Shown here piece after piece: positions 41,103 through 63,731 of a DNA stretch of 64,000 nucleotides. Source of the stretch: Thermosulfurimonas sp. F29 (GTDB lineage: Bacteria; Desulfobacterota; Thermodesulfobacteria; Thermodesulfobacteriales; Thermodesulfobacteriaceae); contig NZ_JAIFYA010000001.1 of assembly GCF_019688735.1 (NCBI RefSeq), positions 124,001 to 188,000 on the forward strand, in the 5' to 3' direction. The notes beneath the pieces are model-generated. The model ran no database searches, was not told the origin of the DNA, and worked only from the letters and a program-made list of their open reading frames with translations. A program made the position numbers and the translations under genes. Within the stretch, counting starts at the first letter, position 1. Each line of letters begins with the position of its first letter.

Positions 41103-41134
41103 TTGGCAAAGATTTCAGATGATAGTAATATAAT
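41103..41134 (+). promoter_or_regulatory. Putative promoter TTGGCA with TAATAT/TATAAT
   Basis: TTGGCA at 41103-41108; TAATAT at 41126-41131 (17-base spacer) or TATAAT at 41129-41134 (20-base spacer). It lies in an AT-rich gap before the coiled-coil gene. Confidence 0.45.
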
Positions 41135-41161: not shown

Positions 41162-41887
41162 ATGAGCGCCGTAAAGAGAGAGTGGGATCCGGAAATTCTG
41201 GTCGAAGTTTTCAGGAAGTATCTGGAGGAACATCCGGAGGTGGTCTCCCGAATTCTCGGTTCCTCGGCAATCCTGGAAAAACTGGTTACTAAGGAGGACC
41301 TCAAACTCCTCCTGGAGCTTTTGAACTCCCGCTTCGAGGCCATGGAAAGACGCTTCGAGGCGCTCCAGCGGGAAATGGACAAGCGCTTCGAAGCCATGGA
41401 CAAACGCTTCGAGGCCATGGAAAAAGCCAATCAGCAACGCTTCGAAGCCATGGACAAACGCTTCGAGGCCATGGAAAAAGCCAATCAGCAACGCTTCGAA
41501 GCCATGGACAAACGCTTCGAGGCCATGGAAAAAGCCAATCAGCAACGCTTCGAAGCCATGGACAAACGCTTCGAGGCGCTCCAGCGGGAAATGGACAAGC
41601 GCTTCGAAGCCATGGACAAACGCTTCGAGGCCATGGAGAAGACCAATCAACAACGCTTCGAGGCCATAAACGGACGCTTCGAGGCGCTCCAGCGGGAAAT
41701 GGACAAGCGCTTCGAGGCCATGGAAAAACGCTTCGAGGCCATGGAAAAAGCCAATCAGCAACGCTTCGAGGCCATGAGCAAACGCTTCGAGGCGCTTGAA
41801 AAGCGTCTTTCTTTTCTCCAGTGGTTCACCGGGCTGGGTTTTACCTTCGTCAGCATCCTTCTCGTGCTTCTCAAATTTTTCGGCTAG
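41162..41887 (+). CDS. Tail-anchored coiled-coil protein with alternating 7/11-residue repeats
   Basis: A 241-residue protein in three parts. Residues 1-56 are a helical head (EILVEVFRKYLEEHPEVV). Residues 57-215 are an uninterrupted coil of RFEAMDK-type heptads alternating with RFEAMEKANQQ- or RFEALQREMDK-type hendecads, giving eight 18-residue units. Residues 218-240 are one hydrophobic segment (FTGLGFTFVSILLVLLKFF), so the protein is probably anchored by its tail in the inner membrane with the coil in the cytoplasm. I know no function. The radical SAM gene starts directly after its stop. Confidence 0.8.
   Translation: MSAVKREWDPEILVEVFRKYLEEHPEVVSRILGSSAILEKLVTKEDLKLLLELLNSRFEAMERRFEALQREMDKRFEAMDKRFEAMEKANQQRFEAMDKRFEAMEKANQQRFEAMDKRFEAMEKANQQRFEAMDKRFEALQREMDKRFEAMDKRFEAMEKTNQQRFEAINGRFEALQREMDKRFEAMEKRFEAMEKANQQRFEAMSKRFEALEKRLSFLQWFTGLGFTFVSILLVLLKFFG
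41330..41805 (+). repeat. 54-bp tandem repeat array (8.5 units) inside the coiled-coil gene
   Basis: Units start every 54 bases from 41330. Three consecutive copies (41384-41437, 41438-41491, 41492-41545) are identical in DNA; the others differ at several sites. The repeats begin CGCTTCGA(A/G)GCC. Their identity at synonymous sites points to recent expansion. Confidence 0.9.
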
Positions 41888-44323
41888 ATGTATCCCGCGG
41901 AGCTTCTTCCCCGCGTCCGCAAGCCCGCTCGCTATCTGGACGGCGAGGTCAACGCCTTCCGCAAGCCCTGGGAGGAGGCGGAGGTCCGTTTCTGTCTGGT
42001 TTATCCGGATCTTTACGAAATCGGTATGTCCCACATAGGGCTCCTCATCCTTTACCTCATTCTGAACAGCCGGGAGGGCTTCCTGGCGGACCGGGCTTAT
42101 GTTCCGGCCCGGGATCTGGAACGACTCCTGCGGGAAAGGGGGCTAACCCTTCTTTCCTGGGAGCACTCTCGTCCGCTTCGGGATTTCGATGTGGTGGGAA
42201 TTTCCTATCCTTACGAGCTCTGCGCCACCAACATTGTGACCGTGCTCGAGCTTTCCGGCATTCCGATTCTGGCCGGGGAGCGTGGTGAGGGGGATCCCCT
42301 CGTTCTCGGCGGGGGCTCGGCCATGGCCAATCCGGAACCGGTGGCGGACTTTTACGACGCCATCGTGTTCGGGGACGGAGAGGAGGCCATCGTCGAGGTG
42401 GCCGAGGTGGTCAGGGAATGGAAGGCCGCCCGGGGCACGCGAAGGGAGCTTCTCGAGGCCCTTACGAGGCTTCCGGGGCTTTATGTGCCGGCCTACTTCC
42501 GTCCGGTTTACGATGAAGGACGGCTCGCGGCGGTAGAACCCTTAAAGCCCGGTTACGAAAGGGTACGCCGGCGCGTGGTGGCGGATCTCGACGCCGTGGT
42601 CTATCCCTTTCGCCCCCCGGTGCCCTGGTTTGCCGCCCACGATCGGCTCTCCGTAGAAATCTCCCGGGGCTGCACCAGGGGATGCCGCTTCTGTCAGGCG
42701 AGCTCCATTTACCGTCCGGTGAGGGAACGAAGCCCGGAGAGGGTGCTGGCCCTGGCCGAGGAGGGGCTTTCCGCCACCGGCTACGAGGAACTCTCCCTCC
42801 TTTCCCTTTCCGCCGGAGATTACACGGCGCTGGAGAGCCTGGTAAGGGCCCTCTATCGCCGTTTCGGAGAAAAACGGGTCTCCCTGTCCCTCCCCTCTTT
42901 GAGGGTGGGAAGCCTCACGCCGGGCCTTCTGGAGGTCCTCTCCCGGGGACGCCGCACTGGGCTGACCCTGGCCCCCGAGGCCGGGACCGAACGCCTCCGC
43001 CGGGTCATCAACAAGGACATTTCCGAAGAGGAGCTGCTGCGGGGGGCTGAACTCGCCCGGGAGCTGGGCTGGCGCGACCTCAAGCTTTACTTCATGATCG
43101 GGCTTCCCACCGAGACCGAGGAGGATCTCGAGGCCATACCGGCTCTCGCCCGCAGGGTTCGCAAGGCCGGCCGCGGCCTCGAGGTCACCGTCTCCGTGTC
43201 CACCTTCGTGCCCAAACCCCACACCCCCTTTCAGTGGGAGCGCCAGATAGACCTAGAGGCGACGCGGGAGAGACTGCGTTTCCTGAAACGGCGGACGCGC
43301 GGCCGCGGGCTGCGGCTCAAGTGGCACCTCCCGGAGCAGAGTTTCCTCGAGGGCGTGCTCTCCCGGGGAGACCGGCGGCTTTCCACCCTCATTCTGGAGG
43401 CCCATCGGCTCGGAGCCCGCCTTGACGGGTGGAGCGAGGAGTTCCGTCTGGAACGCTGGCTCGCCGCCGCCCGCAACTTAGGCCTGGATCTTTCCGCCTA
43501 CCTTCGGGAACGCGACCCGGCGGAGGTCCTCCCCTGGGAGCACCTGGAAAGCGGTCTTGCCCGGGAGTTCCTCCTTGCCGAAAGGGAGAGGGCCCTGCGC
43601 GGAGAGGTCTCCCCCGATTGCCGTTTCGAAAAGTGTCTCCGATGCGGGGTCTGCGGAAAGGAGATCCGCAATCGCCTCTTCTCCCCGGTGGAAGACCGCG
43701 AGCCCCTTCCGGACCTTCCCGCAAGCGAATCCCTTTTCTGGTACCGGGTGATTTACGCCAGGGAGGGGACCGCCAGTTTTCTTTCTCAGATCGAGGTCCA
43801 GAGGGTCCTGGAGCGGGCTCTGCGAAGGGCCGGTGTGCCGCTGGCCTTCACCCGGGGGTTCAATCCCCGCCCGAAACTCTCCTTCGGCCGAGCCCTTCCG
43901 GTGGGAGTGGCCTCCCAACGGGAGGTCTTCTTCGTGGCCCTTTCCGCGGAGATCCCCGCGGAGGTCTTCCGGAACGCGTTTTCCCGGCAGTTGCCGGAGG
44001 GATTTTCGGTGCGCGAGGTAAGCAGGGTGCCCGAACCGGAAAGGGAACCGGGAGAGGCCCTCTTTGAGGCCGTTCTTCCGGGCGGGGTATCCCCGGAAGG
44101 CGTAGAAAGACGCCTCCGCACGCCGCTTACGGTGAAACGGTCCGGAGGATCCCGGACCCTGAATCTCGAAGAATGGATAGGAGAGTGGCGGGTGGAGGGA
44201 GACCGACTTCGATTCACCCTGAGGCTGGCCTCCGGAGGCCCACGTCCCGAGGAGGTGGCCGCTCACCTCCTGGGAGAATCCCCCGAGGAAATCCTGGCCC
44301 GGGGCCTGAAAAAGCTTGCCTAA
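41888..44323 (+). CDS. B12-binding-like radical SAM protein fused to DUF2344 (TIGR03960/TIGR03936)
   Basis: An 811-residue protein. The N-terminal part resembles a B12-binding domain (YPDLYEIGMSHIGLLILY), followed by the radical SAM core with the cluster motif CTRGCRFCQ near residue 262 (CxxxCxxC). The C-terminal ~190 residues are DUF2344 (FWYRVIYAREGTASFLSQIE, FNPRPKLSFGRALPVG). A CLRCGVCG knuckle lies between. The fused form is common in clostridia and delta-type bacteria; DUF2344 proteins are linked with tRNA or ribosome genes, but the reaction is not known. Confidence 0.92.
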   Translation: MYPAELLPRVRKPARYLDGEVNAFRKPWEEAEVRFCLVYPDLYEIGMSHIGLLILYLILNSREGFLADRAYVPARDLERLLRERGLTLLSWEHSRPLRDFDVVGISYPYELCATNIVTVLELSGIPILAGERGEGDPLVLGGGSAMANPEPVADFYDAIVFGDGEEAIVEVAEVVREWKAARGTRRELLEALTRLPGLYVPAYFRPVYDEGRLAAVEPLKPGYERVRRRVVADLDAVVYPFRPPVPWFAAHDRLSVEISRGCTRGCRFCQASSIYRPVRERSPERVLALAEEGLSATGYEELSLLSLSAGDYTALESLVRALYRRFGEKRVSLSLPSLRVGSLTPGLLEVLSRGRRTGLTLAPEAGTERLRRVINKDISEEELLRGAELARELGWRDLKLYFMIGLPTETEEDLEAIPALARRVRKAGRGLEVTVSVSTFVPKPHTPFQWERQIDLEATRERLRFLKRRTRGRGLRLKWHLPEQSFLEGVLSRGDRRLSTLILEAHRLGARLDGWSEEFRLERWLAAARNLGLDLSAYLRERDPAEVLPWEHLESGLAREFLLAERERALRGEVSPDCRFEKCLRCGVCGKEIRNRLFSPVEDREPLPDLPASESLFWYRVIYAREGTASFLSQIEVQRVLERALRRAGVPLAFTRGFNPRPKLSFGRALPVGVASQREVFFVALSAEIPAEVFRNAFSRQLPEGFSVREVSRVPEPEREPGEALFEAVLPGGVSPEGVERRLRTPLTVKRSGGSRTLNLEEWIGEWRVEGDRLRFTLRLASGGPRPEEVAAHLLGESPEEILARGLKKLA

Positions 44324-62798: not shown

Positions 62799-63731
62799 CT
62801 ACGCTTTCACCACCTCAGGATTGAGGGGTTCCAGGTATTCCCCACCCATGCGAACGAGCAATATCCTTCTTTTGTTAGCCAAATTGACCAGGTCAGGAGG
62901 TATCCTAAAAGCAGCCAGAAGGGGAACGATCCTCTTGGAAGCAAATTCGGGTTTGAACCAGAGAAGATCCGCCACAAGGGACCTCAGTTGCTCAAAATCT
63001 TCACTTCTGGCCTGACTTTTCACCTCGGCCACAAAAAGCACCTCCCTCCGGACCTCGTCTTCGGCTATAACCAGAGCGTCGTACTGTCGGCGCCGGCCAT
63101 CCTTCTCGTATTCCACATCCAGCATGCGCTCTTTTACCCTGTAGCCCAACCTTTCGATCAAATAGGGGATCCCGGGAGCGAAAATGTCCTCGGTAAGAGT
63201 GCCCAGTCTCTGGGCCATCTCCCCCCACTTCCTGCGCATCCATTCCCGATCCCTCTCCGCCTTTTCCTCAAGTTCTCTCAACCATTTCCGATCCTCCTCC
63301 CTCCCCTCCGCAAGTCTCCTCACCATCTCCCTGTCCTTCTCCGCCTCCTCCGCAAGCCTTATCAAAAATTTACGATCCTCTCTCACCTCCTCCGCCAGCT
63401 TCTTCAAAAACTCCCGGTCCCTCAAAAACTCCTCCGCCAACCTCCTCAAAAACTCCCGATCCTCTTGCCTACCCTCCGCCAAACTCCTCAATACCTCCCG
63501 GTCCCTCAAAAACTCCTCCGCCAACCTCCTCAAAAACTCCCGATCCTCCTGCCTACCCTCCGCCAGCAATTTTACGGAATCCTTCAGGTTGACCACGCTC
63601 AGGAGAATGGATGAGGCCAGGTCCTTGAGCAATTCGATCTCTCTTTCCAGGCTCCCCAGCCGGGGATCCACCTCTTTCAACCTTTTAAGGATCTCCTGCA
63701 GGTCAACCTCCGTACGATCCAGGGGTTCCAT
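62799..63731 (-). CDS. Coiled-coil protein with C-terminal PD-(D/E)XK nuclease-like domain (DUF3782 type)
   Basis: A 310-residue protein. Residues 1-55 are helical; 60-185 are eight 14-residue units of the form REFLRRLAEE-x-RED, that is, double heptads of a regular coiled coil. The C-terminal 125 residues match DUF3782-like restriction folds: QYDALVIAEDEV and VLFVAEVKSQ supply the D...ExK residues. Such genes are scattered in thermophilic archaea and bacteria; no activity is known. GAGGAG lies seven bases before the ATG. It follows the partial Yip1-like gene by 53 AT-rich bases. Confidence 0.8.
   Translation of the reverse strand: MEPLDRTEVDLQEILKRLKEVDPRLGSLEREIELLKDLASSILLSVVNLKDSVKLLAEGRQEDREFLRRLAEEFLRDREVLRSLAEGRQEDREFLRRLAEEFLRDREFLKKLAEEVREDRKFLIRLAEEAEKDREMVRRLAEGREEDRKWLRELEEKAERDREWMRRKWGEMAQRLGTLTEDIFAPGIPYLIERLGYRVKERMLDVEYEKDGRRRQYDALVIAEDEVRREVLFVAEVKSQARSEDFEQLRSLVADLLWFKPEFASKRIVPLLAAFRIPPDLVNLANKRRILLVRMGGEYLEPLNPEVVKA
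63411..63565 (-). repeat. 84-bp-period repeat in the coiled-coil gene
   Basis: Positions 63411-63481 and 63495-63565 are identical except one base, at a distance of 84 bases (28 residues, two 14-residue units). This is repeat expansion in coding DNA. Confidence 0.8.

Follow-up and report, generated by a model that had tools for sequence, protein, structure and literature searches.

Organization of the gene and its product

The analysed DNA (hereafter the window) is a stretch of 64,000 nucleotides from Thermosulfurimonas sp. F29 (contig NZ_JAIFYA010000001.1, positions 124,001 to 188,000). On its forward strand, between trmB and a radical-SAM gene, it carries a gene for a protein of 241 residues whose stop codon directly precedes the start codon of the radical-SAM gene (ATG at 41888). 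A sigma-70-like promoter match is located upstream; 0.1 such matches are expected in shuffles of the region. The gene and its subdivisions are as follows:

41103..41131, + strand: sigma-70-like promoter match TTGGCA-N17-TAATAT upstream of the 241-aa gene; a consensus match only
41162..41887, + strand: gene of the head-neck-stalk-anchor protein, 241 aa, ATG start
41162..41281, + strand: head, residues 1-40; short helices in the AlphaFold2 model (10-23, 25-33, 35-41) and a match to the DUF3782-type head profile
41282..41299, + strand: neck LVTKED, residues 41-46; beta-layer consensus with V for A, helix break in the model
41330..41782, + strand: stalk, residues 57-207 = (7+11) x 8 + 7; from RF spacing, tandem repeats and hydrophobic period
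41384..41545, + strand: three identical 54-bp repeat units; from DNA comparison
41807..41884, + strand: C-terminal membrane anchor LSFLQWFTGLGFTFVSILLVLLKFFG, residues 216-241; from hydropathy, the anchor type being that of Thermodesulfobacteria paralogues

The protein is predicted to be tail-anchored because strong transmembrane character is confined to its C-terminus: the highest-scoring hydrophobic stretch of 19 residues begins at residue 222 (Kyte-Doolittle 2.05), while those starting in the first 40 residues do not exceed 0.76. This bears out the tail anchor proposed in an earlier note on this DNA. The AlphaFold2 monomer, based on a 20-sequence alignment, shows one unbroken helix from residue 44 to 240 with stalk pLDDT values mostly above 90, and a helix break at residues 42-43 between the short head helices and the long helix. 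The unbroken helix also speaks for the earlier note's reading. The head fragment modelled separately adopts nearly the same helices as in the whole-protein model, with low confidence.

The stalk repeat

The stalk holds eight full 18-residue units followed by one heptad. RF motifs begin at residues 57, 64, 75 and so on up to 208, and all 17 spacings alternate (7, 11, ..., 7) without a single exception, exactly as the earlier note had described from residue 57 onwards. Tandem Repeats Finder reports a period of 54 bp at 41330-41793 (8.6 copies, score 478). The three copies that had been called identical are indeed so in DNA, and the last copy of this type (41708) departs from them by 2 bases. Hendecads are of two types, RFEALQREMDK (three times) and RFEAMEK(A/T)NQQ (five times). 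With F at position a and M or L at d, the latter places Asn at h, a d-like position of the core, which recalls the N@d layers reported from trimeric stalks (PMC4786415), a resemblance rather than a test.

Fourier analysis of the hydrophobic residues gives the stalk a period of 3.60 residues per turn, the value put forward previously, and 18/5 periodicity is named for coiled-coil stalks in PMC4786415. Compared with about 3.63 residues per turn for a free helix, this amounts arithmetically to a very slight left-handed twist, so that the description of the rod as almost straight is correct on average. With a rise of 0.148 nm for each of 161 residues, its length comes to about 24 nm.

Head and neck

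Scored with a profile built from nuclease-type (DUF3782-type) heads, the first 56 residues reach 13.7 bits, a value that none of 1994 shuffles attains. Against the heads of the tail-anchored paralogues the score is 5.4 bits, and 40 of 2000 shuffles attain it. A single window among 2943 real protein control windows outscores this head on the nuclease-type profile, and its sequence suggests that it, too, belongs to the nuclease-type head family.

The beta-layer neck has the consensus [aliphatic]-A-T-K-[polar]-[DE] and occurs in both DUF3782 and DUF1640 (PMC4786415). The neck LVTKED fits it with V replacing A, and the first RF unit begins exactly 16 residues downstream. The same distance is found in eight nuclease-type relatives (L046, L048, L060, L062, L064, L078, L080 and L090), and this neck occurs in no other tail-anchored relative of the compared set. 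From the head score and the neck spacing, which make head and neck homologous to those of the nuclease-type proteins at the sequence level, the most fitting reading of the product is a tail-anchored stalk that bears a head and neck of the nuclease type. Searched across 297 genomes from the phylum, the head profile retrieved this gene together with DUF3782-type proteins (where the whole frame was readable); a second tail-anchored protein with an A3-type head was not seen among them.

Relationship to described proteins

When 177,635 PDB sequences were searched, both the head-neck profile A2 (E 0.0067) and the whole-protein profile A1 (E 0.00066) gave as top match 6H9L, Kcr_0859 of Korarchaeum cryptofilum. 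The head-only part of this match is weak (domain i-E 0.093), and the alignment passes through the motif ATKED. The entry holds three chains, and the membrane anchor was removed in the solved construct. It comes from the MCUR1/CCDC90B structural study of Adlakha et al. 2019. Foldseek on the whole model retrieved 6H9L as sole match (E 1.7, prob 0.23), which is not significant alone; on the head fragment model it gave no match. Kcr_0859 shares with our protein a helical head, an ATKED-type beta-layer neck, a coiled-coil stalk and a C-terminal membrane anchor. However, the window protein lies below Pfam CCDC90-like detection and has a longer, recently duplicated stalk made up purely of 7/11 RFE repeats. 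Kcr_0859, of the MCUR1/CCDC90B/DUF1640 circle, appears to be its best solved relative; PMC7519068 cites Adlakha et al. 2019.

Two features of the head-neck-stalk-anchor class are present here, the beta-layer neck at the start of the stalk and the C-terminal transmembrane anchor after it. Pfam CCDC90-like (PF07798, cut-off 33.5 bits) was absent both from the listed Pfam matches of the protein and, for this gene, from the whole-genome PF07798 search. The same genome encodes a protein that does exceed this cut-off (L156:925-1443, C2:4500-7000; 38 bits). Its neck reads MATRSDL, its stalk consists of 18-residue units specified by 54-bp repeats (4.7 copies; 18-residue autocorrelation 0.76), and a transmembrane segment lies at its C-terminus. 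The two proteins are therefore alike in having a head, a neck, 18-residue/54-bp stalk units and a C-terminal anchor, but the CCDC90-like member has the stalk sequence LTKEIEQVRKEM and another head, and shows no close sequence relationship to the window protein.

The DUF3782/PD-(D/E)XK nuclease coils (PF12644 and PF07788) share the head type, the neck motif and the 7- and 11-residue RFE units, and in L060 among others also the 16 residues from neck to first RF. DUF3782 and PDDEXK_10 are above the Pfam cut-offs in L058 and L060. These coils end in a nuclease domain, whereas a membrane anchor takes that place in the window protein, whose gene is not listed in the whole-genome PF12644 search. Two architectures carry the RFE stalk. 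The tail-anchored one is found in Thermodesulfobacteria, purple sulfur bacteria and spirochaetes, and the one with a C-terminal nuclease-like domain in Asgard archaea, Nitrospira and others. Tail-anchored paralogues of Thermodesulfobacteria (L015, L063, L067) have the same hendecads (RFEAMEKANQQ, RFEALQREMDK), the same anchor type and a variable repeat number, so that homology of stalk and anchor is apparent from the sequences. Their heads, in contrast, end in SLxERIxRVEEELKALRE, where the window protein has a DUF3782-type head with its TKED neck.

A more distant likeness is provided by the Bdr proteins of Borrelia, which are inner-membrane associated and of unknown function (PMC10016077). A Bdr protein from a Borreliella cp32 plasmid record (L142:598-1353) was found by tblastn; its match covers residues 55-180 of the window protein, that is the stalk only, with 16% identity. 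Its KID repeats are spaced 11, 7, 11, 7 and so on with an 18-residue autocorrelation, and a transmembrane segment occupies residues 227-245 of 251. The strict 11/7 register and the C-terminal anchor are common to both proteins, apparently without homology outside the repeats and with no similarity seen in head or neck; the likeness is probably convergent. Since Bdr (PMC10016077), DUF1640, the DUF3782 coils and 18/5 stalks (PMC4786415) are in the literature, the earlier note, which knew of no described function for such a rod, is to be corrected in so far as rods of this kind are already described. This kind of protein is widespread, and the window protein is a well-preserved example of it.

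Stalk composition and length in relatives

Relatives were collected from whole genomes and genome contigs, and spacing statistics were computed on 98 proteins. Their RF spacings comprise 403 of 7, 284 of 11 and 9 of 18 residues. Neighbouring spacings form the pairs 11-7 (176), 7-7 (162), 7-11 (156) and 11-11 (84), which corresponds to transition frequencies P(11|7)=0.49 and P(7|11)=0.68. The longest alternating run, 17, belongs to the window protein, followed by 12 and 10 in other members. Under independent mixing a run of 17 alternations has a probability near 1.5e-4 and is not attributable to chance, and a single 54-bp unit duplicated in tandem yields the alternation directly.

Could strict alternation have been selected because function requires a rod of fixed length that is exactly straight and free of supercoil? 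The window stalk has a period of exactly 3.60, the mean across the stalk family is 3.587 residues per turn, and, besides the window protein, two further tail-anchored ones have 18-residue stalks (the CCDC90-like protein encoded in this genome and Borrelia Bdr). Against this, relatives with a like anchor have 7-7-7-7 or 11-11-11-11 stalks, and the per-protein 7:11 balance over the 98 relatives shows the dispersion of random mixing (chi2/df 1.07), hence no sign of selection for that balance. Moreover, length steps between orthologues are heptads. We regard such selection as very unlikely; stalks of the family mix the two units freely, strict alternation is not their rule, and the idea that it is a special design is not supported. 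A broader proposal, that an exact 18/5 (3.60) stalk was selected independently in at least these three tail-anchored bacterial proteins, also appears quite unlikely. If it were true, a straight rod of adjustable length would be a general solution for a membrane spacer, and the repetitive stalk would in addition be where crossovers exchange heads, nucleases and anchors. The 7/11 alternation is real and unusually perfect, yet it looks like the footprint of tandem 54-bp duplication under a helix-phase constraint rather than a conserved straight-rod design.

Length variation was followed by comparing repeat numbers across orthologues of sister species, with one genome per species. The genes of Thermosulfurimonas dismutans HyVt-483 (L063) and Thermodesulfobacteriaceae S143_67 (L083) are one gene in one place, with flanks 94-95% identical, and differ in length by exactly 63 bp, or three heptads. 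A related copy (L067) has yet another repeat number. The earlier suggestion that unequal recombination changes the length is supported for the family, where repeat number varies, though steps other than 54 bp occur as well. At the sequence level, stalk length drifts.

History of the locus

Five relatives, four congeners and one member of another genus in the family, have trmB next to the radical-SAM gene with no 241-aa gene between them. The site being empty there, the gene was either gained here, as a species-specific insertion between the two, or lost several times elsewhere. No inverted repeats that could represent mobile-element ends flank it, except repeat-internal ones. No conserved partner gene was identified, the neighbours differing among ten relatives. 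Matches to tail-anchored RFE coil genes range from 0 to 11 per genome. Within the family (G019, G026, G009), some species have about ten such matches and their sister species none.

Elsewhere in the same genome (L154:847-2180, C2:706000-709500), a tail-anchored coil gene is interrupted within its stalk. A segment of about 986 bp with a DUF3782/PD-(D/E)XK nuclease gene (1128-2057) stands there in place of about 190 bp, between remnants of head and anchor; the intact gene is present in a congener (L036), and no simple target-site duplication was seen at the insertion. Together with the empty site in relatives, this replacement suggests that repetitive stalks may be sites of domain exchange.

These observations can be taken further, into an accessory family of fast turnover whose stalk is a recombination platform exchanging heads, anchors and nuclease domains, the window copy being a recent chimera that was placed between two housekeeping genes and has at most a small role in the cell. 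The patchy occurrence of the gene and its relatives, the lack of conserved neighbours, the nuclease gene inside the L154 stalk and the singular combination of an A3-type head with a tail anchor among the 297 genomes would all agree with this. However, the 241-codon frame is intact and the coiled-coil register perfect, and anchors and necks are conserved in distant relatives, which argues that selection maintains the fold. We consider such a chimera unlikely. We give virtually no credence to the idea that the protein is a scaffold protein of gene transfer agent or phage type (NCBIfam NF048001, RCAP_rcc01685 family). The whole protein does score 54.2 against that model, above its cut-off of 50, but this is a sum over six stretches of the stalk, and the head is without match. 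The GTA head formation protein is a helical protein of about 70 aa, encoded in a head locus of a GTA or phage and expected to give 50 bits over one domain, and it was ruled out by the 24.5 bits of a one-stretch piece. No phage or viral-contig match was obtained, no head genes lie nearby within the window and the neighbours are housekeeping genes. Pfam matches to HSBP1, CreS_N, Matrilin_ccoil and DUF3106 are likewise confined to the stalk and were not taken as homology.

Proposed mechanism

The reading that we favour, with moderate confidence, is that the window protein belongs to the head-neck-stalk-anchor class (DUF1640/MCUR1/CCDC90B, Kcr_0859 type), combines a DUF3782-type head and neck with a stalk and anchor of the Thermodesulfobacteria type, and works as follows. 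Parallel chains, probably three, would come together at the beta-layer neck, which would nucleate the assembly and set the register. The C-terminal helix would insert into the inner membrane, and the nearly unsupercoiled 18/5 stalk would project the head into the cytoplasm, where it may bind a putative partner about 24 nm from the membrane. Oligomeric state, topology and spacer role are inferred here. The exact alternation would have come from tandem duplication of one 54-bp unit, surviving duplications being only those which keep both reading frame and helix phase (7, 11 or 18 residues); within this constraint, rod length would be free to drift.

One stalk design links three little-understood groups, prokaryotic relatives of MCUR1 (a mitochondrial regulator), DUF3782 nucleases and Borrelia Bdr. 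The gene also offers a clear natural case of coiled-coil rod lengthening in which retained duplications keep helix phase. No new system is indicated, and the rod, coming from a lineage rich in thermophiles, could be used as a straight-spacer scaffold.

Other coil genes of the genome

Near the end of the window, on the reverse strand, the gene at 62799-63731 encodes a protein of 310 aa and contains tandem repeats of 42 bp (63288-63566) that specify 14-residue double heptads DREFLRRLAEEFLR. The part which follows the repeat is C-terminal and nuclease-like, and the DUF3782 match is below cut-off (16.1 of 24.4 bits). A second paralogous set is present in several copies in the same genome (L003, L004, L006, L008). 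Its members have a signal-peptide-like start, a short RFE/RFD coil, a transmembrane segment and a helical C-terminal part (WDRRTxIRKAREE...).
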